From NCBI GenBank assembly GCA_964017235.1, contig OZ024931.1, positions 21,552,189 through 21,616,188 on the forward strand: a stretch of DNA of 64,000 nucleotides, read 5' to 3'. This DNA comes from Sabellastarte sp. h YS-2021. Lineage: Eukaryota; Annelida; Polychaeta; Sabellida; Sabellidae. Positions within the stretch are counted from its first letter, which is position 1. Every line of letters starts with the position of its first letter. Shown in pieces: positions 4,467 through 60,976 of this stretch. Position numbers and translations under genes: made by a program. Below the pieces are notes generated by a model. That model was given only the letters and a program-made list of their open reading frames with translations, did not search any database and was not told the DNA's origin.

Positions 4467-4572
4467 GTAAATAATGCCACTGCTAGAGTCATGTCTAAGA
4501 AAAAGACTGACCCCACCACTGCAGTGGTCAATGGTACGTACCCTGCTGCTGCTGCCAACGGTTTAGTTAATG
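4467..4572 (+). CDS. rbfox: rbfox exon with VNNATARVM (two in-frame donors)
   Basis: The acceptor is TTGTAG before 4467 and the frame begins at phase 0 with VNNATARVMSKKKTDPTTA, the segment directly after the RRM in RBFOX proteins. Two donors end the exon in the same phase: AATG|GTACGT after 4533 and AATG|GTGTGT after 4572. The extra 39 nt encode an Ala/Asn/Gly-rich 13-residue insert. Either form joins the 4922 exon by G|TT (Val). Confidence 0.88.
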
Positions 4573-7500
4573 GTGTGTATTTAAAAAGACTTTTTTATCC
4601 ATGTTGTGTTCGTTGTGTTGACTGCATTTACTTTTCAATACATAAGTCAAAGTTACCAGTTATTTTTAAAAGTTCACTGTTTTGGGACAACAATTTCACC
4701 TTTCAGGTTAACCCCATTTATCTGTTCATGGTTGTATGTTTAAGATTTTTACATTAATGTAAGTCCATGCTATTTAAATTTGTGAGAATATTTGATATAA
4801 ATGATAAACCTACAAGTTCTACAAGTTTGCAAACTATGTAATACTTAGGATACTGGAAGGCCCTCATCACTGTCCGTGTCCCGGTCATGTGAAAGTACTT
4901 AACTTGTTGTTAACCTTGCAGTTGACCTGGCATCAGCTGCTGCCCTGAGAAATGCTGTAGCATTGAGAAGTCGCATACGTCAGCCGGGACTGACAGCCAT
5001 AGCAGCTCCACCAGGGACAACCATCATCAGACCTGCAGCACTTGCTACTGCAGCTAGTGGACTTCCTTATGCCACGTATGTATAGTTCATCAGAAACATG
5101 TATTTGAATCAGTTATAACAAACAAAATAGCTTCTTACTGCAGCTTTTTAAGATTAGATATGAAAAGTATTGTTTGTTTAACCATTAAATAAGTATTGGT
5201 AGGTGTATAGGCAAGAACTGGAATAAGCTTCCAATGTAGAGCAAAATTGCAGTAGGCTTAAGATAATTACGAAAGTAAGACTTTAAATATATCATACACA
5301 TGTTGCAATTTTTACATCGGATAACAATCACGATAAGGGATTGATCGTAGTGTGGAAACAACATTTCAACCAGCATTGTAAATTTTCAATGCATGCATAT
5401 TTGTATCCACCGGATAGTATCCAGTAGATACTATGGATTACACATGAGTACGCCGCCTCCACAGTGTGTAGAGATTTTCTCGTTACCCCTCTAGAGGCCA
5501 GGGTATTATAGGTAGACTTCTCAAATTTTCAGGTTATATTCATAACCATAAAATCTTGCCTGGTAATATTTTTGGCCTTATTTTGAAAAACAAGATGGCC
5601 ACCACGGGCGTTTTTTGACTTTCAGCAAGGAGTTTTGTTGGCACTCTATAACAAAGGGAATTATAGGTAGAGATCTCAAATTCGCAGGATATGTTTATCA
5701 TTACAAAATCTTGACTGAAAGTATTTTTGGCCTCATTTTGAAAAACAAGATGGCTGCCACGGGTGTTTCTTTTCAGTCATGAAAAGTGCTTATATCTCCC
5801 TTATTATTGGTCCTACAGGTTTGGAATGTCAAACCAACCTATAGGAAATCATGGGCTGCGAATCTTCTGGTGTGGTCAGATTTGACCTTGGGCCGCCCCT
5901 TCAAGCTCAAATGAGGATAGGCAAACTTAAAAGTGCATATAACTCGCTTACTATTGGTCCTAGAGGTTTGGGATGGTAAACAACCTATAGGAAATCATGG
6001 GCTGTGAGTCTTCTGATGTGGTCAGATTTGACCTTGGATCCCTTCTTCAAGGTCAAACGAGGACAGCCAAACTTAAAATTGTTTATAACTCACTTTTTAT
6101 TAGTCCTAGAGGTTTGGGATGGTAAACCAACCTATAGGAAATCATGGGCTGGGAATCTTTTGGTGTGGTAAGATTTGACCTTGGGCCTCTCGTTCAAGGT
6201 CAAACGAGGATAGCCAAACTTAAAAGTGCTTATAACTCGCTTATTATGGGTCCTAGAGGTTTGGGATGGTAAACCAACCAATAGAAAATCATGGACTGGG
6301 AATCTTTGGGTGTGGTCAGATTTGACCTTGGGCCTCTTGTTCAAGGTCAAACGAGGATAGCCAAATGTAAAAGTGCTTATAACTCGCTTATTATTGCTAC
6401 TAGAGGTTTGGGATGGTAAACCAATCTATAAGAAATCATGGGCTGTGAGTCTTCTGATGTGGTCAGATTTGACCTTGGGCCTCTCGTTCAAGGTCAAACG
6501 AGGATAGCCAAACTTAAAAGTTCTTATAACTCGCTTATTATTGGCCCTAGAGGTTTGCAATATGAAAACAACTTATAGAAAATCATGGGCTGCGAATCTC
6601 TTGATGTGGTCGGATTTGACCTTGGGCCCCTGCTTTAAGGTCAAATGAGGGTAGCCAAACTTAAAAGTGCTTTCAACTTGCTTATTATTGGAAAATGCTG
6701 TTTATCTTCTAAACTATGTTAGTTGGCCTTTTCCGGTGGATACATCTTGCATCTGGCCACAGATGTGTCCTTGGTCTAGTTTTGTATTAATTTTAAATAC
6801 AGACAAACAAACAAAAGTAAATATAGTATAACCTGTTATCCAACATTCTATCAGCTTCATGGATTGAGAGCAAAACTTGCATGTTTTGTTTTTAATAAAT
6901 TTTATTTCCTGTTAGCTAACCTATTGAGCACAAGAAGACAACTTTTTGGGCTATTGCAAAATTTTTAAAAAAATTGCATCCACAGGTAGTGATATGGAAA
7001 ATGCTATTCCAGTCCTTATCTTGATGTATTGCCTTCGTACACACAATGGTCTACAACCTTACAGTCTACTTATACATCTTCTTATTACAGCTCATTTTAC
7101 AAATGTTGCTGTGAAAACCAGTCATTCCATGTTATGACTAAAACTTTCGGTCATTTTATGTAGTGACTTGTTTCATAGAGTGACTGTAATATTCATACAT
7201 GTATAGAGACTGCAGATCGAGATCTCTTAATCTTTATTCAGTATATTTCTAATATCATTTCCTATGGAGTTTTGAGAAAATAGTGCAGCTTATCCTATCT
7301 TTATTTGTTTTAAAGGATATTTCAGTTCTAAGATAATAGACACAGTAGATTTTACAGTGATGTGTTAAATTATCATAAGATGAATTAATTAACTGTTCTA
7401 CATGCCTGTTGAATTACAATGCTTTGGGGTATTTTGTGGGATTTTTATACTTTCATATTTCTTTCTTATCTGTTATTTAAAATTTTCTGATAACAGGTAG

Positions 7501-10500
7501 GTTTTATGCTTTTAATCAAGTAAAGCTACTGAAGTTATTGTTGATTTTGAAATAGTAATAGCTTGTGTAAATATATATATTGCTCGGTCTACATTCAGCG
7601 GCTTTTATTGCTTTACTTTAATTAAGTCTCCTTTATCTTTATTTTGGAATATTTTAAATTGATAGTCAAGGATTGTGAGTTTATATTCTCGCAGCTGAGG
7701 ATATTAAAGATTATAAATAGTTTTAGTATTTGCATGGATGTTTTTCTAAACATTTTCCAGATCTCCCCGATATGCTACCAGTGTTCTAGCAGCAGTAAGT
7801 ACAAACATACAGTGTTAACGCACACACAGGTGTTGGGTGAAAGAATCAAATTCCTGTGTTTCCTCTTTTTTTTTAACCTGGAAATTTTCCTAATTTCCAC
7901 AAGTGCACAAATACATGAGGAGGGATGGGCTTTGCCAGGAAGTGACGACGCCATAGTGTCTTGATGTATAGTGTGGAAATGGGGGTTTTAGCTTCTTTTT
8001 TTTCCCTCTCCACTGTGTGCACTCAATAACCTTTCTACAGAGCTGTTCTGTCTCAAGAGTTATCCCGATTACTAAATAATTTTTTTTGTTGCGAAATTAT
8101 TATTTCCCTTGTTTTGTTGTGTTGTTTTTTTTTAAACAACCCTATTTTACTACATTTTAGATTGAGCACAGAAGAGATGGACATATTTCAGTCCCATATA
8201 ATTTTACCAAAAAAGAAAAAAAAACATCTGCCCTCCATCTGTATCAGTTAATATATTATGTATAGTGAACCTACTCGGAATCCACATAAGACGCATAGAC
8301 TTCTGAGACTGAGGGGCTCTGGTAAATCATAGTTTGCATTGCATGCCTTACCTTACCCCTTGAATCAATTAAAATAACCTTGTTGGGGTTTTGCTGTTGA
8401 TTTTAGGGCAGTCTACCAAGACCCCTTCTTCGCCACTGCTTATGCAGCAGATCGCTACCAGGTAGGTGCTGTTTAAATCACCACCTAGTAGGCTATGCTC
8501 TGTGTTGTTTTAACAACTGTGACGTTCAAACTTTGTTCTCTGTGTACGATTTCTTAGCCCAGTCTTTTAAAGGTCATTGAAACATGTAAGACAGAACCAT
8601 ATAGTTTGACCAAAAAACAGACTCTGTGGTGTTGATTTTTTCCTGTCTCCTGATCTTTGACATTGAATATTGCAAGTGTTCAGACTTAGAGTGGGAATTG
8701 GAATTAATTAGACTTGTATTTCCTTATAAATAGCGTAACAGTCATGTGTTGGGCGGTCATCTTTTATTTATAACCCAATATTTGATCTGTGTCTCTCCTG
8801 TACATCTGTCTGTGTCATTGGGCAGCAATTTTGCAGTTACAATGTTGCTAAAAATTTGTTATAATATGACTGTATACATAAATTATCATCGGCAAAATCA
8901 GGGCATGGTTATTTCCATTATTGCCTAATCAATAAGAACTTTTAGCTGTCTTGTCATTGTGTTTAAATATACCGGTTATAGCGGCATTCATTATCGCAAC
9001 AATATGCTGTGGCTCGGGGTTTTATGTTTTGCATGATGTTCAAATTAAAGTGATTTATGTGTTTGTTAATATACAATAAAGTATGTTAATTATGTATATT
9101 TTAAATTTTTGGTCTATATATATATACAGAAAAACGTTAAAGTATATTGCAATATAAAATGTAGTTAAGTATAATATTGTTAATTTTGTGATTTTATTGT
9201 TAAGAAATGTCAGAAATATATATCAAGATTTTTCTTTCATTATACAAATCTTATTAAATAAGTATTGTGTATATATTAAGGATGGGGCATTCGATACTAT
9301 ACAATAAGATGGTCTATACACATCAGAATCATTTCTTTGGTCTATGCAACCAAATAATTGTTTTGGAGTGGGTTCATACAAATTTGTGTTTAACAATTAT
9401 GTTACAATTGACCTGTATTATATATGCAGTGACTGTAGCAGACCTGCTTGTATGCCCATTCTGGTCACAGAAGTAGCACTGTTAACAGCATTCATGGTTC
9501 TTGGTTTATAGAGATAATAATAATAGCATATAATAGAATATTGTAATTTTTACTGCAACAAATAATAGCATTGCAATATCCTGCTTAATGGCCCTTCCGT
9601 GTCCCTTTCACCTGTCTGAAGTATTCATCTTTTATGGTCATTAAAATTGCAAAATGTACTGTTTCCCTTTCATTGACAAGAATGCAGTAATTGCTGGACT
9701 TGTGATCATGAATCATGGAATTTCTGTTGTAGTAGATGATCATATCTTGGTTTTCATTAACGAGAGTTTTGAAAACTTGGCAAACTTTTTTTGTTTCCAG
9801 TCAGCCAAAGCCCATTGTTGGGAGATAATGAAACACTTTCCGTGCATGTGTGCATACATCTAAAAATCTTTGTATTCCATTAATTTATGAAGATATCTTC
9901 ACCAAATTTGCAGATAATGATGATGGATATGAAAACATGTTTCTTTTCTTAAAAAAATTGGCCACCATAGCCAGTTGTTCAAAAATCATTCATGACGTTC
10001 AAAACTAAAAGTATTACAAGAAAAGTATTACAGATTTGCACAAAAAATTTACGGCTAGAAAAGCTTGCCCGAGAGAAATGTGGGCCTCACTGGAAAGCAA
10101 AATGACTGCCATATCTTATCTTTAAGGTGAAATGGGGGTCATCAAATTAAAAAGGCCTCCTGTCTCCCTTATTATTGGTCCTGGGGCTTCAAAATGTGAA
10201 CACAATATGTAGGAAGCTGTGGCTTATTTTTTGCAATTTTCAATTTGTCCTATGACCCCTTCTTCAAGATTATCATACCAATAAGGATTATACATCCCTG
10301 TTATTGGGATTTTGGATGTGAAGACAAATTTCTTGGCATCATTTTGGAAAACAACATATCTGTCATCTTGGATTTTGTGTGACTATCAGAAATGGCACAT
10401 ATGTCGGAAGCTGTAAGAAATAGAGCAATTTTGATTGAACTTTGACACCCTTAGGGTAGAATTAGATGACCTGGTTAAAGTTCAGAAATATTTGATTTCT

Positions 10501-13500
10501 GCTGTTTCAAGATCACACTACTTAGACTTTTGCTTTGTACCCAGTGGAAGATAACCAACACGGCACTGGTCTTCTTTAAAGTAACCAGTAACATATAAGT
10601 GTTTATTTATCAACAATTTGAAGAATAATTCATTGATTTCATTATGGGAAAGTGTTTACTGATTTGATATTAATGACTTTTCATACTAAAATGTGATCCA
10701 TATATTTGATTCCGTACAAAATGTTTTGTGCATAGTGCATTTATGCTGTTATAGTGATCAAACTTTAATATAAGCTTCAGATTTTTGAGAAAAATAATAT
10801 AGCTTGTTAGGTTGTAACAGACATGTGAAATTCTGACCCCACGGTTGCAGACTTTTATTTTACACATAACTTTGCAGGGTCTTACCATAACTTAACAGGA
10901 GCTGATTTTGTTTTTCATTTGCTGTATAATTCTTCCCAATGTATGTCATGTGCTGGAATGCCTATTATAGAAAGTAAAGGGGAATGATTATTGTATATGC
11001 TGGTTATGTTTTGTTGTATTTATTGCATTTTTGTCTGTATTTGTAAGTCAGGTTAAATTTGCAAAGTTCACAAAGCTCATGTTTTGTGTCATTTGAAATG
11101 TATCTGTTAATACCTGAGTTGGTTAAGATTATTCAGTTGTTAAAATCCTTTGTAATTAAAATGAACTGTTTCTGGAAATTCATTAAACCTGACTATCAAA
11201 TACATTATGCGTACCAGTACACTACCAACCAAAACCATTACTATTATTCATGATCATGACATTTAGCGGAAGCAAATATTCATTTACAGTTTAAAAACTA
11301 CTTTCATATCAAAATTAGATGCAGATAGACAGTGACAGAGCCTTCAAGAAACTAAATTAGTACCACTGTTTTTTTTTTTCATTTAGAATAAGTTATTTAT
11401 GACTGACAGCCATGTTTACATTTATCTTTTCATTGTAATTTAAAAAACAACTTGGAAATCTCCATTTTCTACAGAGCCTGTTTGATTTATACATTTTAAA
11501 ATTATGTTCACATGGTTTTGGTATATTCTCAGCGCATGGTTGTCAAGTGGTAAAGGTAATCTGAGAACCAATATATTTAATTTGCATCTCTTTAAAAAAT
11601 GTCCTCCATTCAAAGCCCAGCCTCCACCTATGGGGCAGCCGTTGCTAGCCATCAGCAGGGTGTTTGATGATGGTATATGGATGTATCTCTATGGTGTGCC
11701 ACTGTTTTTGCTTTGTAGCCCTATGCTGCAGGCATTGCCACCCCTGCAGCCGCTGCTGCCACGAGGTATGCCATCCCAGCCATGGCATCAGCCAACATTG
11801 CCACTGCAGGGTATGTGTGCCTTCTCACCCTTTTACATACTTGTATGTATTTATACCAGATCTTGAGCCTGGCCCAATACACAAGTCTTTCAGCCTCTCA
11901 GAACTGCCCTACTCCAGCTAAGGGTGAACCTGAAAAACTATGATATGTGAAATATTTTTTAGGAAAAGCCTCCCAGTAATCTTTAGCTATGGGCATTTTA
12001 GCATCAAAAATTTGAATGGCTTCAGTTTGTTTTTCCATTAAAGTATTACCAACTTGAGACAAAAGAAGTCTTTGTACAGGCTTTCCCAAGTTCCTTCGAT
12101 CATGAGTTTTAATTCTCTTCTCTCTTGCATTGTTCTCACAACAATTTACTGTTTTTCTGCAAAGCATCCCATAATATTCAGTAAGTTTATAGGTAGTTTC
12201 ATTATGCAATAGAGTTAGGTTTTGTATTTGAGGAATCATATTTGTTTAATGACTAAAATTATTAGCTGTATGAGTAAACTATAACTGGACCTGTAGATCC
12301 CACAATTTGACTGCATGAAAACTAGTTTGATCAGTGGAGTGCTGTTAAATTGAGGCTTTACAAAGCATTTTACCTCTAAGATGGAGTAAATAAATTGGCC
12401 TTCTTGCATCTTTATTTCATAAACCAGAATATAAATTAATTTGAAACCTTTTGTTATGCTGTTATCCATTTAATAGATGGCCAAACTCTCCAAAATTATT
12501 CAGTCCTTGATTTATATGTCCTTGTGGTATTTACTTCTCATCCTTTCTGATCAGCAAAATATTTTTGTTAAGAAATGGGTCGTAATCTGAATCCATAACT
12601 AAGTTTTAATGACATCCCATAGTGTATTAAGAAATTGACAATTTGGCTTCCAATTTATAAGGCCCCTAAGCTATAGGTGTCCCTTCTAATAAATGACCAT
12701 GTTAAACAATTGCTATTGTTCTTACTAACTGCATGAATAAGCATTGGAAGCACAGTTTGTATTATCTTTAGAAATGCTTTTAAAATACCTGTAATGCACT
12801 TGTGTTACTTTAAAACAAGGATTCAGTGAATGTGTAATATGTCTCTTTAACTCTTGCATCCTGTGTCTGTATATTTAAAGTATTTCATATTTTAACTTTT
12901 AATCATTGTTTCCCTGAAAAAAAAACAACATTTGCTTGAAATAATTGAGAGCACCTTGCATGAATTTAAGAAGTTGTCATTTGAATGCTCTTAATATTAA
13001 ATGTATTGTTTTAGATTACAATTAGCCATTATTAGTTTTATGTTTGTAACAGATATATCAATGTAAATATGTTTTGTGGCATTGGTTTCCAATTATTTAA
13101 CTCATGATTTTGCCTCAGATTCAATTCATTCCTACTTGTCACACCTGACACCCATTTGACTGAATTTTTACCTTGCATGTCTTCAAACCATCTGCTTGCT
13201 GCTTAATAAACTTTAAAATTTTAAATATGATTTGAAGGGAGTGGATTACTTTTGTACCATATATTCATGATTTTTGTTCTGTTGCTAGGCCAATGGCAGA
13301 AGAAAATATTATGTTTTAACCATACATAGTAATAGATCTACAAAAATTGCAAGCAGGTTTGATGAGTAGTCGCAGATGATGAAAATTGCCAATTTGATTT
13401 AGTTTAAAAAGGTCAAAATCATGAGTGCTTTATGAATAACCTTCTAACCAACCGTTGGTCATTCCCAAATTTCATTTCTGTTGTAAAGTTTACCTGCTGG

Positions 13501-16500
13501 CTGCATTAACGGTCCATGAATCTAGCATTTCCATTGCAGCAATGTTTCTGTGCATGGATTGACAATTGCTTTTTTCAACATTGCTGTGTTTTTTTCTTTG
13601 TACAAAAACAGTTAAACCTGTAAACGTGACCAGTCTCAAGTAAACAAGATTTATTCATGCTTTTTGTCAGCCTGTTATAAATAGAAAGTTTACCCATGGC
13701 AATGTTCTTGGCTGGTCTTCAGAGTACATGTTTGACTGTTGTAACATTGCATGCATCATTCAGCAGGATAATGTTACAGAAATGAGAGTTTATGCACTGC
13801 AACCTGCCTCTGGTTTTACAAAGAATGCCCAGTGTGATGCACACAGAAATAACAAGCTTCACATAACGGATAAGAAATAATGGTACACAAATGTGTCTTC
13901 ACATTTGACTTATAAAAATGGAAAAGTGTACAGGTACCATACCAAAAAAAAACAGTCTCTGTAACATTGCACATGTTAACGGAACTTGCCATTGGTGGAT
14001 AATAAAAAAAATATCCCAATTCAACTCTTTTCTCACATGCACAGAAATGTTGCTTCACCATTCCTGAAATTTTGCCTGTGTGATGGAATGAAGTGGTACC
14101 TCTTAACACCCTTTACCATATTTTTTATCATTCTTGGTTTGAATATAAATATCTTTAGATGTCAAAAGAGAGAACATGAGGAAATTGAACAAAGTAGAAA
14201 AAACTGGTTAAGCATGTGAATATTTGTTTTCATTGCACCTGGGTTCTGATATCGACCAAACAGATCAGTCAAAATTCAGAAAAGATTGAGGCAAGTGTAT
14301 AGATTTTCCCTGATGAGGACTTCATTTTTGGTTCATGTCTTACAGATCCCTTTTATCACTATATCACAGTGTTTCTGTTCCACACCAGGGCAGTAGCATT
14401 TAAAGCCAAGAATGTTCAATGAATATGGATTTCCTCATATGCAGTGAAGGTTCCACCTCCTTGCCAACTTTTACCGCAGAAATTCAATGTTTCTTATATT
14501 TTCATGTAAATGTCTTTCTTTTTTTGTTACAACACAAAAGCTTCTTCAAAACCTTGCAAACTTCACTTGGTTGGACTGGTCACCCTCTTAGGATTTGGAC
14601 AAATCATGTTGACTTACGTTTACCCCAATTTTCTGCAGTTGAAATATGTTTACCAACGAGCATGAGGTTTTTCCCTTTGGTTCTTACCAACTTATCCAAA
14701 CATAACTTGTCTATGACTAACTAATCTGATTGTTTTTCTGTTGTTTTCTTTCAGATTGCTGAGTGAAATGTAGTATTAATACATCTTGTATTGTTCTAGT
14801 TACAGGTTACCGTGTGCGCAATCCAGACAACAATGCTTATTGAACTTTTTGACAGCAATCAAAAACCAACACAAGTACTTTGTTATAGAAAATAAAAGTT
14901 ACTGATATTGTGGTGCAAAGTTTAATCAGGTTGTTTTTATTGATATATTTCACTTGGGCTTTGTGATGACAAAAAGTTCAATATTGTTTGTTGTGTACCC
15001 TGACTGATCAGCATTATTTTACTGTCATTGTTTAGTATGTAGAGTCAAACTAACCACTGAATGCTATTGTTATCACACTTTGCACTTTGGAACAAATAGA
15101 GATGAAATTCCTTTACGTTCTGTAATTAGGACTAAGGCTATTAGGCAAAAGAAACAAGACCGGGTATCTGTTTGGCTGGAACCAACTCAAATCTTGGTAA
15201 CCTAGAAAGTATCGGTGAACCATCACAGGAGATGATGTAAATGAAATTTTAAATATCTCTTGAAAATAAGGACAATTATATTAAAAACACATCATCTAGA
15301 ACTGAATACAAGGATATGAAAAAATTCATGCTCAAAGTATGCAATCTTTAATTTTACAAAAATGGGTTATAGAGTTTACATTTGATTACTGGTATTTGTC
15401 CAAACATACTAAATTCCTTGATGCTTAATTTGTATATGTATAAATATATTTTTGAAAAATCATTAAAGGTAGAGTAAGAAATCTAAAATTCGCCAGGAAT
15501 CTAAAATTCGCCACCTCTAAAACCTTAGTTAATCTTATGAAGAAAGTGATGTTTTTGTCTAAAAATTGGTATTTTCAGTTCAAAAAGCCTTAATTTACTA
15601 TACAGTAAACAAATCTCACCATAATTCATTTATTTTATTAGTATTTTTACATGTGGCGAATTTCAGATATGTGGCGAATTTTAGATTTTTTACTCTACCA
15701 ACCTTCTATTAGAAGGGAATATTCAAAAATTCTATTTTCCCTATTTGTTCCATGGAGTCTGATGTACTGTTAGTGCCTGGTGTGGTTTGGCTAGTGACCT
15801 GATTGCTGTGTTGTCTGTACTAATCCAGTGTTTTCTCTCACTGTTATCCCATAGAACGGGTGCTCATGTCCTTTCTAGTATCTCCGCAGCGGCTCCGCGT
15901 GAATATGCAGTTGCAGCTGCAGCAGCCACTGACCCGTACCTTGGACACAGTATCGGTCCTGTAGCTGGATATGGGGTGAGTAAAGCCTCTTACAGATCTT
16001 ATTTTGTTGCAGTATAATGGACTATCTTTTCCTCTTTTTGTTCATAGATTTTAGTTGATAGATTTGGGTTAAACATTACTTTAAACAGAGGTTTTATGTT
16101 ACGATGATTATTTGACGTGGTGGAGCAAACTGGGGCATCTACTTGGCCATGATTCAGTTTTGTGAACGGAAGGGCATTGGTAAGCAATAACCAACTTTCA
16201 TACTTGAGTTTGGGGCTGAGATTCAATCCAAAATCCCCTGCGGTTTGAGGCATGTACATTAGTCTGCTTATAAAAGACAAGAATTACATTTTAAAATGGT
16301 CAACAAGTTAATACAGGCCAGAAATATGAGTATGAGTAAGGATCAAACAAGTACCCGGTACTTGCAATGCTGCTTTTTAAAGGTACCTCTAACCTCTCTT
16401 TATTTTTCTCCACCTTTAAACCTGCCATTACAATAGAATCTCAAAATTATGTTTAACCCACAAGAGACAGTCCTTTGCTCAACTTGTTTGTAACAGTTTA

Positions 16501-16955
16501 TAAAGGCTCTATTGCTGTAATGTTGTGACAAACGGCTGTAAAGCGGCTTCAATATTTCAAGTAATAAGGCATTGCAAGGGACTGAGAATTTATCACCTTG
16601 ACAGTGAAAAGGGTGCTTTATGAACTGATACTGTTTGGTGTGACAAGTACCTTTTCAAGTAGTTTGTTTCACAAAGAGAAATCAGATAATAAAGAATAAA
16701 ATGGAAGTTTTGGAACCATCCGTTTAATGTGTGAGTGACTTACATTCTTAATAGCCCTAGTTTATGGCAACTTTGTAAAGGGAAGACATTGTAGTTATAA
16801 CACTGGGTAATAAGTTAAGATGTGAAGATTTTACACTGATTTGGGTAAATAGTTTAACTGTGAGAAAATCATGCAAATAAACCTGTATATGAATGTGTTC
16901 TGTGTTTCAGGCAACCTTATACAGAGGAGCATACCAGAGGTTTGCCCCGTACTGA
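4467..16955 (+). CDS. rbfox: RBFOX-type splicing regulator, C-terminal six coding exons (partial gene)
   Basis: RBFOX (Fox-1) proteins bind (U)GCAUG in pre-mRNA through one RRM and control alternative splicing in the nucleus. The window holds the part after the RRM. The first exon starts with VNNATARVM, the conserved stretch that follows the RRM. Then come Ala/Tyr-rich exons with AVYQDPFFATAYAADRYQ and TDPYLGHSIGPVAGYG, and the protein ends in ATLYRGAYQRFAPY, the family's characteristic C terminus. Exons: 4467-4533 (or -4572), 4922-5075, 8407-8461, 11719-11765 (or -11810), 15855-15975, 16911-16955. All junctions are AG/GT and the phases agree (0, 1, 2, 0, 2, 0). With the longer donors this part encodes 190 aa, with the shorter ones 162 aa. 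The RRM exons must lie left of position 1. Family assignment is strong; which paralogue is unknown. Confidence 0.85.
4922..5075 (+). CDS. rbfox: rbfox exon, Ala/Arg-rich linker
   Basis: The acceptor is CCTTGCAG|TT and the donor CAC|GTATGT; length is 154 nt, phase 1 to phase 2. The peptide is low complexity, with VDLASAAALRNAVALRSRIR followed by a Pro/Thr stretch and an end at SGLPYAT. It corresponds to the Ala/Arg-rich linker of RBFOX proteins, which is poorly conserved between phyla. The phase match on both sides supports the exon. Confidence 0.85.
5402..6744 (+). mobile_element. TIR-bounded element with central 147-bp tandem array
   Basis: The element is bounded by perfect inverted termini: TGTATCCACCGGA at 5402-5414 and its reverse complement at 6732-6744. 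The middle holds about six units with an exact 147-bp period; the phrase GGTCAAACGAGG recurs at 6051, 6198, 6345 and 6492, with a diverged copy at 6639. Each unit carries TATAACTCGCTTATTATTGG. There is no ORF. Short termini plus a central tandem core of about 150 bp resemble the pearl-like / non-autonomous Helentron-type elements described in bivalves. It lies in the rbfox intron after the 4922-5075 exon. Confidence 0.7.
6745..8406. other. rbfox intron, no further feature apart from the 34-nt candidate exon
   Basis: The sequence is AT-rich without repeats I can name. It contains TGCATG at 7731 and 8340, and the candidate exon at 7761-7794. ORFs here are short and unconserved. Confidence 0.4.
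7761..7794 (+). CDS. rbfox: candidate alternative 34-nt rbfox exon
   Basis: This is a short open segment between a good acceptor (CATTTTCCAG) and a consensus donor (GCA|GTAAGT). It would encode S-PRYATSVLAA after completing the AC| codon of the 4922-5075 exon. Its length is 3n+1, as is that of the 55-nt exon at 8407, so it can replace that exon without changing the downstream frame; using both would shift it. TGCATG, the RBFOX binding motif, lies at 7731-7736, just before the acceptor. No transcript evidence was available, so this is a prediction. Confidence 0.45.
8407..8461 (+). CDS. rbfox: rbfox exon with YQDPFFATAYAADRYQ
   Basis: The acceptor is GATTTTAG|GG and the donor CAG|GTAGGT; length is 55 nt, phase 2 to phase 0. 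It encodes T-AVYQDPFFATAYAADRYQ, matching the conserved VYQD...YAA block of RBFOX C termini. A TGCATG hexamer lies about 62 nt upstream (8340-8345), a position from which RBFOX proteins often repress exons. Confidence 0.88.
8462..11718. other. rbfox intron with a diverged interspersed repeat (about 9890-10480)
   Basis: This is mostly unique AT-rich DNA. About 9890-10480 reads as a decayed relative of the 5.4-6.7 kb element: it has the phrase CTTATTATTGGTCCT (near 10168), 'accccttcttcaaga' after a GTCCTATGACC run, and repeated 'gccatatctt/aaaatggctgcc'-type text. TGCATG occurs at 9030 and 9843. No exon was recognised. Confidence 0.4.
11719..11810 (+). CDS. rbfox: rbfox exon PYAAGIATPAAAAAT with two in-frame donors
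   Basis: The acceptor is CTTTGTAG|CCC, phase 0. Two donors leave the same phase 2: AG|GTATGC after 11765 (47 nt) and GG|GTATGT after 11810 (92 nt). The longer form adds YAIPAMASANIATAG. Both join the 15855 exon, giving R-TGAH or G-TGAH. The Ala/Tyr-rich composition fits the region of vertebrate RBFOX that carries tissue-specific alternative exons. Confidence 0.85.
11811..15471. other. rbfox intron, no gene recognised
   Basis: AT-rich intron. A 113-codon minus-strand ORF (12239-11898) is open but matches no family I know. TGCATG hexamers lie at 12958, 13174, 13551 and 13748. Nothing else is supported. Confidence 0.4.
15472..15695. mobile_element. mariner-type MITE, copy 1
   Basis: A 224-bp palindrome-ended element that starts GAGTAAGAAATCTAAAATTC and ends with the inverse, flanked by TA on both sides (15470-15471 and 15696-15697). 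Each end holds two copies of AATCTAAAATTCGCCA or its complement. TA duplication points to Tc1/mariner mobilisation. A near-identical copy lies at 40413-40637. It sits about 160 bp before the rbfox exon at 15855. Confidence 0.8.
15855..15975 (+). CDS. rbfox: rbfox exon TDPYLGHSIGPVAGYG
   Basis: The acceptor is TATCCCATAG|A and the donor GGG|GTGAGT; length is 121 nt, phase 2 to phase 0. It encodes TGAHVLSSISAAAPREYAVA, an Ala run, then TDPYLGHSIGPVAGYG. This aligns with the YAADPYHHTIGPAATYGVG-type block near the end of RBFOX proteins. Confidence 0.9.
16911..16955 (+). CDS. rbfox: rbfox terminal coding exon
   Basis: The acceptor is TGTGTTTCAG|GC. The exon encodes ATLYRGAYQRFAPY and stops at TGA 16953-16955. 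The RGxYxRFxPY end is diagnostic for RBFOX proteins, so this fixes the C terminus. Confidence 0.92.
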   Translation, partial: ATLYRGAYQRFAPY

Positions 16956-28000: not shown

Positions 28001-31000
28001 AGAAAATAGAATCTAAACTTGAACAATCTCTGGGGTCTCGTTTGGACATCCAATTGGAACAGAAAATGGGTATTTTTCTGGCTAACATGCCCATGGCAAT
28101 GAAGTCTCTTCGGGAAGAGAAGCTGAAATGACCCTTTTACAACCACACTTAGGGGAAACAAGACACCAGGAACTCAGGAATTCGTCCTTTTGGCCTCCTT
28201 CCTTGTTCAAGTCTCAATTAGTGAAGGAAGGTGAAGACTTCCTCCTTAAAAAAGACACCTCGAAAGACTCCCAGGGTTTTGGACCCTATCAGAACAAGCC
28301 CTTTCGTGGTCCCCACAAGAAAAGAGGCTCCTACAGGAAATGCCCCTATGGGGGCAACTCCTCTGAAAGCAGTAACCAATCGTTTCCCTCAGGCAGGGGG
28401 AAACCGAATTTCAGAGGCTCCAGGGATCGTTTGCGACCCCACAATAGGGGAAGAGGGCGTGGAAACCCCTCCCCCCAATGACTCCTTAAAAGCCTCCCTC
28501 AGTCCACCAGTAGGAGGTCACCTCCGTTCTTTCAGGAGAGAACAAACAAACAAATGTTCATCAAACGTGTTAAACATTATCACCAATGGCTACATACTGC
28601 CATTCCTCTCAAAACCAAACTTGGTCAGATTCCCTCTGATTCTGTCAGAATACAAGGCACTTCAAAAAGACCAAGATCTGGCCGATTGTATCCAGTCTCT
28701 TCTGTCAAAGAACGTAATCAAGAGAGTGGAAAATGTAAAATCTCTCGGGTTTTACAGTCACCTGTTTCTAGTCCCCAAACCTCACCAAAGGTGGAGGCCA
28801 GTAATACACTTAAGGAGGCTCAACACTTTTCTACACGTAGAAAAGTTCAAAATGGAAGCTCCAGATTCCAGGGGAATGGGTATCGTCGATAGATCTGTCG
28901 GACGCTTACCTTCACATCCCCATCCACCCAAACTCAAGGAAATACCTAGGGTTTTGCCACAGGTCACAGGTGTTCCAGTTCACCTCCCTTCCTTTCGGAC
29001 TAGCCACAGCCCCCCAGGTCTTTACAATGATTGTAAAGGAAGTGAAGCTAATGGCCCTCTCCAGAGGACTCAGACTTCACCAATACCTGGACGACTGGCT
29101 GATCAGGTCCCAGTCTCGGGAGGAAGCCCAAGTGAACACTCCGGCAGTGGTAGACCTAACCCAGTCCTTGGGTTGGATAATAAATCAGGAAAAATCAGAA
29201 CTGAAACCTACTCAGGTGTTTTCGTTCGTGGGCTACAAATACCATCTAGATTCAGCCCTTGTAAAACCCACTCAAGAGAGATGGGGTCAAACTTCAGGAT
29301 TTGATCCTGTGTCTCAAGTCAAAACATGTTTTATGATGTTCAAGATGTTTGATGTCACTGATTGGGTTGCTTGCCTCAACGGAGAAAATTGTCCCGGAGG
29401 GACGCCTTCACATGAGGCCCTTTCAGTTTCATCTCAAGGAGCACTGGAAATATCCTCAGTTGCTGGACAGCCTCCTTCCTTGGACAGAAACAATTTCTGC
29501 ACACCTATATTGGTAGCAGAACCCCTCAAACGTGATGATAGGTGCGGACCTTCATCCCAAAGACCTCAGCATCTAACTCTTTACAGACGCCTCAAACGTA
29601 GGTTGGGGCGCACACTTAGACCAAAGTTCTACAAAGGGTCTGTGGTCAGATGTGGGAAAAAGGCTACACATAAATGTTCTAGAGTTGAAGGCGGTCTCTC
29701 TGGCCCTTCGAAACTTCAAGGACCAGAGTCAGAACCAAACAGTGCTAGTTGCAATGGACAACTCAACAGTGGTAGCCTACATAAACAAACAAGGAGGAAC
29801 TCAATCAGCGGAGATGTGTGCACTCCTGTGGAAGATCATGACATGGTGCCATCATTTTCACATAACATTGAAAGCCAGACACATCCCTGGGTGTCTGAAT
29901 GTGATGGCCGACCTTCTGTCCAGGTCGAACCAAGTGCAGTCAACAGAATGGTCGTTGCATCTGCAGGTGTTAAAACAGATCTGTCCAAAGGGGTTCACAC
30001 CTCATGTAGATCTATTTGCCACTCATCTGTACCACAAACTTCCACTATACATGTCTTCAATCCCAGACCCAAATGCTTGGGACATAGATGCTCTGAACAT
30101 AGACTGGACAGGTCTCACTGCTTATGCTTACCCTCCGACGGCTCTCCTTCACAGGGTGATCCAAAAAATCAGGAAATGCCACTGCCTGATCATCGTGATA
30201 GCCCCAGGCTGGCCAGGGATGCCCTGGTTTTGGGACCTAGTACAGCTCTCAACAGAGATCCCACTGCAACTCCTGGTGTCAACAACTCTCCTCAAATAGT
30301 CCCACAATTATGTGTTCCACAACAATCCTCAACATCTCAACCTCCACGCCTGGTCTCTAGGAGTGGACAGCTCCAAGAATGAGGCTTCTCTGTGGAGGTG
30401 GCAGAGAGAATTGCTGCACCTCAGAGGTCATCAACAACAGGTGAAACAAATCTCACATTTTTTCATATACCTGTACCAAGATCTAAATAGGCGCCCCACG
30501 ACCATTGATGGTTACAGGACAGCCATTGTTGACACCTTGGGCCCAGCGGGCCACCATATTGCACAAAGTTCAGACCTTCACAGGTTACTCTCCAGTTTTC
30601 ACAGGGATCGTCCCAAAAGTTCCAGGAATCTTCCTAAGTGGAACCTTTCTGTTGAGCTCACAAAAGCACCCTTTGAGCCTATGAAAGACACAGACATCAA
30701 ACATCTTACTCTCAAAACTGCTTTCTTGCTAGCTTTGGCCTCCGGCAAGCGCCGCAGCGAAATCCATGCCTGGGTTGCAAACAAAGTATCTAATCTAGGC
30801 CTATGGAAAAAGGTTGCCTTGTTCCCTTCTTCTGACTTTATGGCCAAAAACCAACTAGCAAGAGAAGGTTCCCAAAGTGTGTCCCCAGTGACTATTCGTG
30901 CTCTGACTACCATTGTAGATAGACAATTCAAAGAAGACAGGACCTTGTGTCCAGTGCAGGCCCTGAGGTATTATTTAGACCGAACCAAGGACCTGAGAGG

Positions 31001-34000
31001 TTCCCGGTCCCTCCTTTTCATCTCCTTCAAGAAAGGACATACCTCAGACATCAGACCCGCTACTCTCTCTTCTTGGTTGAAACAAACCATTCTACTTTGT
31101 TATAAACAAGCAGACCAACAAGCCTTGGACTTGGTCCAAGTCAAAGCGCATGACATTAGGGCCTTCACGGCTTCAAAGGCCTTTTACGGTGGGGTATCGG
31201 TGGACCAAATCATGCAAGCCTGTCACAGGAAAGCTCACAACAAATTTACAAATTTTTACCTAAAAGACCTTACTTGGTCAGACAACGACGACAATATGTA
31301 TCTGGGGCCAGTAGTAGCGGCACAACAGGTCCTAGACCCTTACCCTCAGACCAGTCATCCTCGGAAAGAAAAGAAGGGGGGGCACATCCGCTGCAACCAA
31401 GTCTTCAGGAGTCTAACCCAGGGTCTAGGTATAGGTTTACCTCATCAGGGTGTTTGGGTAAGGTCTTTATATTTTTAATTTAGTATTGATTGTATAATGT
31501 ATTAAGGACTTATTAAGGTTGTCATTAATCTCATTCTAGGGTGACAATAAGTTGTGAATCTCCAAGCCTAGGGCTTAGATTTTCTTTTGTGATAGCCCTA
31601 GGGGCTTTACTCCTTCAAAGTGTATATAGGCTACACTTCTCTCCTATCAAAACACCCAGACAGTTTTTAGCACTGTCAGTCATTCATTCAGGGTTTTTGG
31701 CTTTTTTTACAGGCCTGATCACCGTGATTGGGGCACTGTAAACGGAACTCAGACTGGTATTTTCTAAGTCTCATTCTTTTTATTATTTCAAAATCTAAGA
31801 AAAACTAGACATTCTTCCAGTCTCAGCTGTAATCCTCCACCATGCGGTTGGATTCAGCAATCAGTCCCACATGGTAAGCTATTGTAGCGCAATAAAATTT
31901 AAAATTTTAATTACTTAAATGTAGCTTTTATAAGCTACAAGCTGAGACTGAGAAGAGTCCCACCCTGCCTCCCCGCTGTATTACAGCTGAGAGGGTATGG
32001 TTCTAAATTTCAACAAGAAAGGAGAAGACAAATGGAGTGTATCACTTGACGACAACCTGAGGCTAAGGCCAACTATAAATGTCTGTTTTTCGTAGACGTT
32101 GGCCAGGCCTGGCGGTCATCCGAGAACAGCAATCAGTCCCACATGGTAAGCTTGTAGCTTATAAAAGCTACATTTAAGTAATTAAAATTTTCAAATTTAC
32201 AGTATTTTGCATAAATATGTTATTCAGTTACTTTTGCGTCAGCTATAACATAGTAAAATTGCAGACCTCATTGCATAGCTGAGTAATATCTACTTTGATA
32301 TTATCACTGTTGAGCAAATAGTTGTAACTTGAAAACTATTGCATTTAGAGAATTTTGTTTAAATATCTTATTCATTTACTTTTGAATTAGCTATAACAAA
32401 GTAAAATTGCAGATGTGTATCTCGTGGCATAGCTGAGTAATAGTTATTTTTTTGCGCTACAATAGCTTACCATGTGGGACTCAATGCTGTTCTCTGATGG
32501 CCGCAAGGCATCAGGCCAAGGTCTAAGAAAAATAGACATTTATAGTTGGCCGTAGCCTCAAGTTGTCCTCTCGTGGTACACTACGCGATTTCTTCCTACT
32601 TTCTCGTTGGCCACGTGATTTGTAGCATCTGTCATTTACACAGATATTTAAGCGTCACGCAAGGGGCGCTTTTTTGTGTATAGGAGAAAATCAGGCTCTG
32701 CCGGCTCCACATTTCGTTTTCCTTATAAATCTATAACCGTTGGGCGGATTCTTTTCAAATTTGGCAGGTGCATGCAGTAGCCTTGGGGAATTTTTTTGAA
32801 TATGCTGCAGTGACATTTTGACCAATCACATGACCAAAAAAGGGATTTTATCAATTCACCTGAAACTTGGCAAATACATTCATTCTATTAAAATCTGGAA
32901 ATCATTAGATTTCAGTACGAATTTTCCAAATAAGGAAAACACAAAAATGCTTATATCTCGAAAACCGTGCGAGATAGAGCGATTTCGACAAAATTTTTGA
33001 CCTGCAAGGTATATCTTCAGAGTGGCCATCCCAAGTTTCAAAAATTTTTGTCTTGCCCAAAATGGCGGCCATTTTGAATTTTAGAATTTTTCGCAAAAAA
33101 TTGCAAAACACAAAAATGCTTATATCTCGAAAACCGTGCTAGATAGAGCAGACTACGCAGACTTTGCTTGCCACAACAGTATAAGGCTAAAAGCAGAGCA
33201 TTTTCTTAATACTTTAGCACTCCCCTTTATATCCTTTTCGGGACGCTACTGCAAAAACATTATGTTTTTTTTTTTTGCAAGCGATCCTCTAGTTTCATCT
33301 ATTTCTCAGCACATACATATTGTTGGATGTTAATTTTTGGTCATTTCATGTATTATATATCATAGATTATTCTGTAAAATTTCCATTTTGACAGGATAAG
33401 TATATTTTATTATTTTCGTGTGTTTTGAGTTTTCCTCAGTTCAGGCTTTCATCTACATCTTTTTATTGCTTTTCAAGATGTCTGCCCACCAAACGAATAA
33501 AGATAAGCCTAGATCTAGTAAGTGTCGTCACTTTTGCTTCGCGTTTGACACACATAATTATTGCCCTACCTATAGGAAATCTGGCAAGGGTGATGACCCC
33601 TGTGTCACTTTTGAAAATCCATGTGAAATATGCACTTCGTTTACAGAAGAACAAATGTTGAAAATTTCACAAAGAAAATGCTATATTAAGAAGCAAAAGA
33701 GGGACACTTTTAGGGGATGACGTGGATTCATTTACTTGTTCCCATGTAGACCTTGAGAGTGCTGCAGATAACTTATTTACCTCACCCCCGCGTCCTCAGC
33801 CCCTACCCTTCAGTTCATTGTCCATCAAAACACCAGCAAAAACTGTCCCACCCACCCCAGGTACTGCCTTACAGCATAAGATTGAATCAAATTTAGAAAA
33901 ATCCCTGGGTAACACACTAAACATCCATTTACAGCAGCAAATGGGTTCTTTCCAGGAATCTATGTTAGAAGCACACTAACCTGAAACTTGGCAAATACAT

Positions 34001-43000: not shown

Positions 43001-46000
43001 TTGAACTTCCCTGAGACAAGAAGGAATAGATTAGGAATATTACATGAAGTTGGAAAATTTTATCAAAAACTTTTTAAAGCTAGGGGAGTCAATCAAACCC
43101 TCTTTATAGACTCTTTATTTAATTCAAAATCTGTAACTAAACCTTCAGAGAACCAGCTGAATAAGAAGGAAATTTTAAAGAACAGAAGAGTTAGCGACTT
43201 TCTTAAAATCAATGAAAAATAACCAATCCCCTGGCATAGATGGATTCCCAAGAGAATTTGATAAAGTGTTTTGGGCCAACTAAAATTTATAATTTTACGA
43301 GCACTTAACACAGGATATGATATTGGTGAAATATCCAGCACTCTGAAGTAATGTAATATGTTATGCGTTCCAAAGGGCAATAAACCCAGAAATCTGTTGA
43401 AAACTGGAGGCCGATATCCCTCCTGTCTGTAATCTATCTGGGTGTTTAGACTAGTGATTCAACTGGGGCTTACACAGATTGAACCAGATTGGAGACTAGT
43501 CTGAATGCTCACAATCCGGGTTGACAAGGATAAATGTCAACCCCACTCAAGAGGTGGATTGAAGCAGATTGGCTCAACCCTCTTTGTAGTGTGAACCCTC
43601 TCAATCCAGGTTGACAAGGGTGGAGTGTGTTGGTACTGTAATTAATTGATTTACTGCCTTCAATCCTAACTTAAGATTTATGTAAATATAGCTTAATCCT
43701 TTGTAAGCAGGAACCTAATTAACACAAAGGCCACCAGGCACGATTGCTGTGTCATTTCTATATGATTGCAATTTGGTGTAAAATGAATATTTGTAATTAT
43801 AGTAAGATGATCTGATAAGCAGAACTATTCCAAAGGATTGCAATTAGTCTGTTGCTGAAAAAGTGGGAAAATCTTAAACATATAATCTTCTCTTTGATTA
43901 ATTATAAAAACTTTAAAAAAAATATTTATCTGAATGGTATCTAATACAAAATTGGGATCTTTTATAGTTTTAGCAATGTAGAAAACTAATTGTAATTTAA
44001 AAAATTCACATGCATTACATTAAGCTAAATTTGGAGGCTTTACTGTACTCAGTTATTGATACTTCTCGATCCAGGTTAAACTCTGTAGTGTGGACACTCA
44101 ATCCGAATTGAGATGAATCTGCTTCAATCTGATTCAACCCTCGATCCTTGTCAACCCGGATTGTAGTCTGAACAGGGTGTATAAGATGAAATCATTCATA
44201 ATAGCAAACAGACTAAAATCAGTTCTTGATACCATCATGTCAGAAATGCAAACTGGATTTCTAAATAAGAGGTTTAATTGTGAAAATGCCTGCCTGATCT
44301 ATGACATTCTACATTTCACAGAAGAAAAAAGCATTCTAGGGCTACTTGTGCTCATAGACTTTGAAAAGTTTTGGACTCCGTGTCATGGAATTTCCTATAT
44401 GAGCTGGGATTAGATGTGATCTTAAAACGTCAGTGTGTCTCTCACTATATCACTTACTTTGACAATATAAAAGTCATACTACTGTGTTTTGGGAGACATA
44501 AATGTATATTATTGTGAGAAGGATTCAAACCAACAATCAAAGATGCAAGAGCCAAGTGTTTATTTGTCAAAGTGGATGACAACCAGGCTATTGAGGCCCA
44601 AGGAAAATGGTGGACGAGGCAGAAGAACTTACAATGATGCCTAAGAAGATGAGGTTGAGAGGCACCTTCCTTCTCAAGTCTCCTGCACAGACCAGAGCGA
44701 TGACTGCCACAATATACACACAGCTATGGTCATAGATCACAGGTGTTAATTATATAAACATCAACAGCATGGCATGTCAAAACAAATTATAGACTTGTAA
44801 GTAATTACTTGTGTCTTGGTAGTTTTGTTATTCTATCAGTTATCAATTTATAGCTTGGTTTTGCTACATTTTTTTTTGCATTTGTAAAGTTTCTACAATT
44901 TTTGTTAAAAAGTTTTCAAATTTCATGAACAGCATTTCAAATTCTGTCAAAAGGATGCTGAATTTCAAATTCTGTTGAGATAACTTCAAATCCCTCCAAA
45001 CCAATAGGATATAAGGATTGGAATTTCTGGTGATAAATTTCTGTCAGATGTTTATTAAATCATGTAACAACATAATGTACACATATATTTTTTGGTAAAG
45101 ATATGAAAAACAACAAACACTAAAAACATTGCTGTAAATTTATATATGTGGTACACCTGTAACCCTATTTTAGTTATTCTATACTGATAACACAAGAAAT
45201 ACTAGTACTTCGACACTATCGACCATGACATTCTTTTTAATTCCCTAAGAGATTGGTTTGGGGTTGATGCCACTGTGTTGAGGTGGATCAGATCCTATCT
45301 CTCAAACCGGAAACAGAAGGTTAAATTAGGAAATAGCTTTTCAGATGTGTTCTCACTTCCGTATGGTGTGCCTCAGGGTTCTGTCCTGGGCCCCCTCCTT
45401 TTTACCCTTTACACAACCCCTCTCAGTAATATCATTTCCAATTTCAATGTCACCCACCATCTATATGCTGATGACACCCAAATATATCTAGCATTGGACA
45501 ATAGGAATTTTGATTCCAGTTTCGCTGAGCTTACAGAGTGTCTCACATGTATCCAAAACTGGATGGCTGGCGTGAAATTGAAACTCAATCCCGAGAAAAC
45601 TGAATTTATTATAATAGGTGATAGACAAGCCAGAGAGTCCCTCATTAATAAATTCCCTACTCAACTTCTCGGAAATTCTATTTCCCCTACTGATACAGTC
45701 AAGAACCTGGGTGTAATTTTTGACTCTGGAAACACCTTTTCCAACCACATAACTAATATGTGTCGAGCCTGCTACTACCACCTTAAGGACCTAAGACGTA
45801 TTCGTAAATTCCTCAGTGTGGAAACTGCAGCCTTGCTTGCAAACTCAATGATCAGTAGTCGACTTGACTACTGCAATTCCCTACTTTATGGCATCAGTAA
45901 GTACAATGTTGCTAAACTCCAAAAGATACAAAATGCCCTTTGTAGAATTGTTTTTAGACTTGATAGAACTAGCCATGTCACTCCTTTTCTTCAAAAACTA

Positions 46001-60124: not shown

Positions 60125-60976
60125 CACCAAACTCCTAACTCATGCCATAGATCCTTCAAAGACAAGAAAAGGATGCAACATATAACCTCCTGGCCAACCT
60201 CACACACTCTGACATCCCAGGATACCAGCATTTTATCAGGATGATACCTGCCTTTTTCGACCTCATCCAAGAATACTTACACCATCGAAGCATATCGCCA
60301 TGTAGAAGCCAAAGAAATATCACGCAGTGACTATTACAACTACAAGGGCTTCTTTTCCCTGGTTGTTCTGGCCCTGGTTGATGCAGAATAAAGGTTCCTG
60401 TGGATAGTCTGTGAGTCAAGTGGTTCCTGCTCAGATGCACAGATTTTCAACAGAAGCGATTTAAGGGAGAAGATCGAAGATGGCAGCTTGGGGCTTCTGG
60501 TACCTGAACCCCTGGTTGAGGGAGGGCCAGAGTTACACTACTTCTTGCTGGGTGATGACGGATTTGCCTTAATGTCATGGATGGTGAAACCCTACAGCAG
60601 AAGGCAACTGACAAGGGTAGAAAGAATAGCCAACTATAGGATCTCCATATGCAAGAGGGTGGTGGAAAACGCCTTAGGAATATTAGTGAGCCGGTTCAGG
60701 GTACTACTGGGCACTATGGAGCAAAGGCCAAGGGTTGTCAGAGACATTGTGTTTACGTGTGTGGTGTTGCATAACATGCTGAGGACATGTTACGGTGGGG
60801 CAGACAGGGCACCAACCCCAGCAAATGTTGTAGCGGCCAAACAAAATGAACAGGCGGTGTACGTCCCAAATGAGAACTACAGGAATCTTTTGAGGGAGGC
60901 CAAACACCAACAAGAACTAGTGAAAGACTACTTCAATCATGTGGGGGCATTGGCTGGGCAGGAGGACAGGATCTGA
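60125..60976 (+). pseudogene. PIF/Harbinger transposase (HARBI1-like), internally deleted
   Basis: Shifting frames hold the N-terminal block NLLANLTHSDIPGYQHFIRM, then, after a deletion of most of the helix-turn-helix/linker region, SDYYNYKGFFSLVVLALVDA, a stop (TAA at 60389), RFLWIVCESSGSCSDAQIFN, LLGDDGFALMSWMVKPYSRR and KRVVENALGILVSRFR. These are DDE_Tnp_4 landmarks: the second Asp (GDDGF) and the Glu (VVENALG) are present. The first Asp (IDGKH-type motif) is damaged by a small deletion near 60282. The last 162 codons (60488-60973) are open. Confidence 0.85.

Follow-up and report, generated by a model that had tools for sequence, protein, structure and literature searches.

Vertebrate RBFOX1 and RBFOX2 carry in the C-terminal region a pair of mutually exclusive exons of 40 and 43 nt, B40 and M43, used in brain and in muscle, respectively (PMC9153194; for the brain and muscle use see also PMC8559713). 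Does the Rbfox gene of Sabellastarte have a comparable pair, that is, can a 34-nt stretch lying in an intron of this gene take the place of a known exon of 55 nt in the coding sequence of the C-terminal tail? The question is discussed here for a 64,000-nt stretch of DNA which begins at position 21,552,189 of its contig and is called the window throughout, together with the exons of the same gene which lie just before it. The reading that is considered somewhat more probable than the others together is that the 34-nt stretch is a real exon, used instead of the 55-nt exon, possibly under the control of RBFOX itself. When titles and the openings of abstracts were searched with loose terms, none among the papers listed dealt with C-terminal exclusive exons in invertebrate Rbfox, which is weak evidence of absence.

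The Rbfox gene and its surroundings

Judged by its sequence, the gene around the 34-nt candidate is an Rbfox orthologue, and the identification made in an earlier note on this DNA is borne out by the match of the RRM to RBFOX structures. The RRM, put together from the exons of 138, 54, 93 and 106 nt, scores 137.9-143.5 bits against structures of RBFOX1, RBM9 and Ataxin-2-binding protein 1, the residues VNNATARVM of the 106-nt exon being among those that match, as compared with 113.6 bits against the worm ASD-1 and 76.3 bits against the next best protein. In addition, a human RRM sequence was used to search the genome (1.79 Gb in 647 contigs), and the top match was this gene, with 75% identity around the 93-nt exon; among the 29 other matches listed, one was the 138-nt exon of the same gene and 28 lay elsewhere with an identity of 45% or less. 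The protein thus has a Fox-type RRM, and it terminates in ...YRGAYQRFAPY with the FAPY end, which is reported to be a nuclear-localisation signal in mammals (PMC7214753). The Pfam family Fox-1_C (PF12414) was matched by neither isoform at E values up to 1, nor by the C-terminal part of the protein at E values up to 10. Tails of both vertebrate kinds, as assumed for human RBFOX, match the same model at 115 and 101.7 bits, and because these tails match and the Sabellastarte tail does not, the model appears to be narrow and is not treated here as defining the Rbfox family. The exons and motifs are collected in Table 1.

Table 1. Exons of the Rbfox gene and UGCAUG motifs close to the candidate exon, in window coordinates (negative numbers lie upstream of the window)
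Feature	Position	Strand	Basis
138-nt RRM exon	just upstream of window		
54-nt RRM exon, QYGPILDVEIIFNERGSK	just upstream of window		
93-nt RRM exon, GFGFV...RKIE	-516 to -424		
Rbfox coding exon, 106 nt, RRM end and linker VNNATARVMSKKK...	4467..4572	+	AG/GT borders, in frame with upstream 93-nt exon
Rbfox coding exon, 154 nt, ends in phase 2 (...LPYA + AC)	4922..5075	+	borders, translation
UGCAUG, starts 30 nt upstream of 34-nt exon	7731..7736	+	motif scan
Candidate alternative exon, 34 nt, (T)SPRYATSVLAA	7761..7794	+	AG/GT, phase 2 to 0, no stop, coding composition
UGCAUG, starts 67 nt upstream of 55-nt exon	8340..8345	+	motif scan
55-nt exon, (T)AVYQDPFFATAYAADRYQ, putative counterpart of vertebrate B40/M43	8407..8461	+	borders, similarity to assumed vertebrate sequences
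Rbfox coding exon, 92 nt, entered in phase 0	11719..11810	+	borders, translation
Rbfox coding exon, 121 nt	15855..15975	+	borders, translation
Last coding part, ATLYRGAYQRFAPY and stop, FAPY end	16911..16955	+	translation

Some further features of the locus may be recorded. At the junction of the 138-nt and 54-nt exons the RRM reads LMG-AHL-QYG, in which the three residues AHL are extra in comparison with human RBFOX; they reflect either a true insertion or a donor of the 138-nt exon that was set wrongly. The same two exons have tandem NAGNAG acceptors, TTCAGCAG and TTGCAGCAG, at about -5411 to -5405 and -4113 to -4107 of the window, which could add or drop one Gln; a choice with or without Gln at acceptors 3 nt apart is described for Rbfox3 (PMC3126832). 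In the intron before the 34-nt exon, a 147-bp unit is repeated in tandem about seven times (5685-6712), two-unit stretches of the array being 61-90% identical to the reference one, and a stray core copy is located at 10150-10215. Downstream of Rbfox there are two RVT_1 reverse transcriptases and one DDE_Tnp_4 transposase (28841-30382, 45206-46303 and 60392-60976), and the open frame at 30300-31478, beside the first reverse transcriptase, gave no Pfam match. A mobile-element origin of the 34-nt exon itself was rejected: 161 bases had a single match in the genome, namely itself, in a search that skips very common words.

The 34-nt stretch as a candidate exon

The lengths of 34 and 55 nt, both 3n+1, the coordinates and the AG/GT borders given in the earlier note proved exact on recheck. 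The 34-nt stretch is bordered by tttttctaaacattttccag on the one side and gtaagt on the other, its partner donor following 5075 and its partner acceptor preceding 11719, and both exons lead from phase 2 (GCC AC before) to phase 0, as had been claimed. Translation of all four combinations also confirmed that one exon alone keeps the frame and that both or neither breaks it. With the 34-nt exon alone the protein reads LPYAT-SPRYATSVLAA-PYAAG...FAPY and with the 55-nt exon alone LPYAT-AVYQDPFFATAYAADRYQ-PYAAG...FAPY, each in frame to ATLYRGAYQRFAPY and the stop. With neither exon the frame is shifted, FAPY is lost and a stop appears 14 nt before the last junction, and with both exons a stop lies 100 nt before that junction. 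Selection for the open frame of the mRNA with neither exon over the next two exons was considered and found no support: when the real synonymous codons are shuffled, 34% of the sequences are as open (8% when synonymous codons are drawn evenly).

The acceptor at 7761, said to be good, is indeed so: it scores 5.05 bits, more than six of the seven known exons scored, the sole known exon above it being the 93-nt RRM exon (6.23 bits). The donor at 7794 had been called a consensus donor, which is right for positions +1 to +6, where it is perfect, but slightly generous as a whole because the 34-nt exon ends in A; it scores 2.18 bits and agrees with CAGGTAAGT at six of nine positions, the five other window donors counted agreeing at five to eight. 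Both scores fall within the range of the known exons of the gene, as measured with generic metazoan splice matrices which were checked against the exons of this gene alone. RNA folding is ordinary around the 34-nt exon (z -0.53; 48 of 200 shuffles fold as well) and weak around the 55-nt exon (z -1.70; 13 of 200 as good).

Splice strength and frame were, however, rejected as proof of an exon, and the corresponding argument of the earlier note is insufficient alone, because null sequence and shuffles match it. Null sequence was taken from four places of 10 kb before the gene, from six others and from the window beyond 21,000, making 286 kb with both strands counted; it holds 69 frame-compatible pairs of splice sites, or 0.24 per kb, and 17 of them are as strong in sum. 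Dinucleotide shuffles of the two flanking introns give a pair as strong in 68 of 400 cases and any pair in 232. About 1.6 pairs are expected in these two introns (6.6 kb), and two with at least 1 bit at each end are found, 7761-7794 and 9805-9847. The latter, of 43 nt and with a similar splice score in the next intron, was rejected as coding (QSPLLGDNETLSVH, log-odds -7.8).

The peptide was also judged by composition, as a score in log-odds bits relative to the amino acids used in the remaining Rbfox tail exons. The 34-nt candidate, the peptide of which has 11 residues only, obtains 8.5 bits, or 0.77 per residue (8.52 with the complete training protein, the other composition runs having used a protein one Ala short), a value reached by none of the 69 null pairs (best 3.1) and none of the 400 shuffles; known same-phase exons give 0.73 and 0.77 per residue in the training set, and 0.44 and 0.55 when left out of it. 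The other two frames of the stretch score -12.3 and -4.7, and the -4.7 frame has a stop. Of the 56 pairs that a first scan gave in 228 kb, gene included, only the 121-nt and 55-nt exons outscored the candidate in total. Moreover, the nine known exons enclose eight introns (21.5 kb), and when these were scanned for any effect on frame, with acceptor and donor of at least 0 and a length of 15-250, no stretch other than 7761-7794 attained a log-odds of 4 or more, although an acceptor with the low score of the 106-nt exon (-1.07) would escape such a scan. Among the stop-free 34-mers on the + strand of the window outside exons, which overlap and are not independent, 49 of 32,909 reach 8.5, and the full score is attained by 49 of the 7,125 (0.7%) with at least 50% G+C. 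The signal leans on three alanines, and with Ala left out 1,258 of the 32,909 (3.8%) are as high. By this composition and the adjacent UGCAUG, the 34-nt stretch resembles a genuine coding exon, and the probability that it is one is considered high.

UGCAUG motifs and the proposed switch

In the 22.4 kb that cover the gene, UGCAUG is found 21 times on the sense strand, where 5.7 would be expected by the rate in the window beyond 21,000 (Poisson P 7e-7), and seven times on the antisense strand (sense versus antisense, P 0.013), and it ranks first there among the 180 permutations of its letters. No enrichment is seen over the whole window on both strands (43 found versus 46 expected), and 37 of 1,696 hexamers, those shown being mostly T-rich, have a stronger strand bias. 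The motif is within 100 nt of four of ten exons, that is, the nine known ones and the candidate (P 0.05 at the gene's own density): at +20 of the 54-nt exon, at -33, -9 and +2 of the 93-nt exon, at -30 of the 34-nt exon and at -67 of the 55-nt exon. At the same density, a motif no more than 70 nt upstream has a chance of 6% for the 34-nt exon alone and of 0.4-0.7% for the 34-nt and 55-nt exons both, and only one of the 69 null pairs has one within 75 nt upstream. In having the motif, a putative binding site, close by, the two tail exons resemble exons autoregulated by RBFOX.

At the 93-nt RRM exon, the motifs at -33 and -9 of the 3' splice site and at +2, inside the 5' splice site (GTGCATG), lie within -549 to -417 of the window (contig positions 21551639-21551771). 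The mammalian counterpart, RRM exon 6 of Rbfox2, is reported to be repressed by RBFOX proteins to yield a dominant-negative form, and an equivalent alternative exon is said to exist in the Drosophila Fox homologue (PMC3126832). Because UGCAUG surrounds the 93-nt exon, self-control of RBFOX over its own pre-mRNA may be old.

Mutually exclusive use of the two tail exons is considered somewhat more probable than not. The intron between them is 612 nt, which is too long for steric exclusion between exclusive exons, and therefore exclusivity would need regulation or decay. In the mechanism proposed, the 34-nt exon would replace the 55-nt exon, either of them keeping the frame and the FAPY end, and 18 residues (AVYQDPFFATAYAADRYQ, with three Tyr and two Phe) would be exchanged for 11 (SPRYATSVLAA, with one Tyr). 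The exchange would fall in the C-terminal tail of low complexity, the part that drives the mammalian protein to assemble with other splicing factors, and a nuclear form that assembles more weakly would be a plausible product of the 34-nt exon. The RBFOX tail is described as disordered and Tyr-rich, and as assembling with LASR components to mediate exon inclusion (PMC10551640; PMC5778076). Skipping of both exons would lead to a frameshift and loss of FAPY in an mRNA which should survive, because its stop is only 14 nt before the last junction, and the product would presumably be cytoplasmic. Inclusion of both, with the stop 100 nt before that junction, would give a likely substrate for decay, and if the 50-55-nt rule of mammals (PMC3126832) is assumed, this would be the only one of the mRNAs targeted. 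RBFOX protein may bind the UGCAUG at -30 and -67 and repress both exons; repression is proposed because upstream binding favours skipping, as is reported for Rbfox binding in the upstream intron, which preferentially results in skipping (PMC10551640). The choice of exon would then track the RBFOX level and may differ among tissues.

In its widest form the proposal is a homeostatic switch of four states, namely, a Tyr-rich tail (55-nt exon), a Tyr-poor tail (34-nt exon), a cytoplasmic form devoid of FAPY (neither) and a decaying mRNA (both), in which RBFOX would read UGCAUG before two unrelated 3n+1 exons of its own pre-mRNA and which would have arisen separately from B40/M43 at the same exon position. 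This is put forward tentatively, being more doubtful than otherwise. If it is true, exclusive exons would switch the tail of RBFOX, a splicing factor of nerve and muscle, in animals other than vertebrates as well; the place would be the same and the partner exon unrelated, so lineages would have solved one control problem at one place twice. One splice choice would tie together tail chemistry, nuclear localisation and mRNA stability, and the idea of tail switching as an old requirement, met by separate exon gains, would become testable.

Other explanations of the 34-nt stretch have to be weighed. It would be a pseudo-exon, unspliced, if chance splice sites happened to surround a short alanine-containing frame, and this finds encouragement in the density of frame-compatible pairs in null sequence, the number of them expected in the two introns, the 9805-9847 pair with about the same score and the unexceptional composition once Ala is set aside. 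However, a composition like that of the candidate was met with in no null pair and no shuffle, the only such stretch found in eight introns is also in the right frame, and its UGCAUG at -30 may be compared with that at -33 of the 93-nt RRM exon; a pseudo-exon is considered unlikely. It is a little less likely still that the stretch is a real cassette which shifts the frame, being spliced together with the 55-nt exon (89 nt) to produce FAPY-less or decay-prone mRNA. The position of the stop in the mRNA with both exons fits such a cassette, and precedents in Rbfox genes are A53 (PMC7214753) and the cryptic exons 5* and 6* of Rbfox2, which lead to decay (PMC3126832). Yet a poison exon needs no coding-like peptide, whereas the 34-nt stretch has in-family composition and no stop in the right frame, and its length belongs to the one third of lengths that can replace the 55-nt exon in frame. 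Replacement of the 55-nt exon by a real 34-nt exon is the preferred reading.

Relation to B40, M43 and other Rbfox exons

For comparison, human B40 was assumed to encode VVYQDGFYGADIY and M43 VVYQEPVYGNKLLQ; five pieces of these sequences were looked for in literature text, and none was printed in the papers searched. The vertebrate exons are taken to lead from phase 2 to phase 0 because these peptides agree with 1+39 and 1+42 nt. The 55-nt exon is similar to both, none of 2000 shuffles being as good in either comparison, and its VYQDPFF corresponds to VYQDGFY and VYQEPVY in the assumed vertebrate sequences. The 34-nt exon gives P 0.31 with B40 and P 0.03 with M43 (several tests, uncorrected), the latter through a weak match of PRYATSVL to PVYGNKLL, and among the other exons of its own gene the best match is the 121-nt exon (APREYAVAAAAA, P 0.03). 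Typical mutually exclusive exons are duplicated, similar pairs, and B40 and M43 resemble each other (VVYQ...), but the 34-nt and 55-nt exons, unlike such pairs, have no clear similarity, and origin of the 34-nt exon as a duplicate of the 55-nt exon is unsupported (protein P 0.08, DNA P 0.08; DNA with 100-nt flanks P 0.54). The 55-nt exon contains VYQ and leads from phase 2 to phase 0, while the 34-nt exon has the phases and not VYQ.

The earlier note had suggested that the two exons may be an equivalent of the vertebrate pair, and this stands for the position and for the resemblance of the 55-nt exon but not for descent, the 34-nt exon having no clear similarity. It is concluded from these alignments that the 55-nt exon is probably the counterpart of an ancestral single VYQ exon. 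Since the 55-nt exon aligns with B40 and M43 and the 34-nt exon does not clearly do so, the latter, if used, looks like a separate gain, a separately arisen analogue at the same position, and the vertebrate pair seems to have arisen later, when a single ancestral exon was duplicated, because VYQ is common to B40, M43 and the 55-nt exon and is lacking from the 34-nt exon. That both pairs descend from the same ancestral exclusive pair is very improbable: the equal position and phases (those of vertebrates being as assumed above), the resemblance of the 55-nt exon and the weak match to PVYGNKLL would agree with it, whereas the 34-nt exon is without the common VYQ and is as good a match to the 121-nt exon of its own gene as to M43. 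Convergent gains of such pairs across phyla are described in a survey of tandem-duplicated exons in human (PMC9741552); the word RBFOX is absent from its main text, and the view of B40/M43 as a duplicated pair is neither strengthened nor contradicted by it.

Even in vertebrates the exclusivity is not absolute, as B40 rose in muscle without a matching fall of M43 (PMC9153194) and Rbfox2 of rat brain may be devoid of the 40-nt exon and yet have no 43-nt exon in its stead (PMC5577181). Skipping of B40 or addition of A53 is reported to cause a frameshift and loss of FAPY, giving a cytoplasmic protein, though nuclear protein with A53 was seen when an N-terminal signal was present (PMC7214753). The proposed switch resembles mammalian Rbfox1 A53, the protein of which is reported to be cytoplasmic (PMC7214753), in a change of the tail frame that removes FAPY, and differs from this added cassette in that the frame would be lost by skipping or including both 3n+1 exons. 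With exon 6 of Rbfox2, the RRM exon under autoregulation (31 residues in Rbfox3), it shares UGCAUG motifs close upstream, possibly repressive, and the present gene has an exon of 93 nt, or 31 residues, with the motif at -33, -9 and +2. Unlike the tail switch, loss of exon 6 leaves the frame intact and takes away part of the RRM. With B40 and M43 of vertebrate RBFOX1/2 the candidate pair agrees in gene family, C-terminal position, 3n+1 lengths and in keeping the frame and FAPY with either exon, and it differs from them in the lengths themselves, in the absence of VYQ from the 34-nt exon and in a tail that does not reach Fox-1_C.
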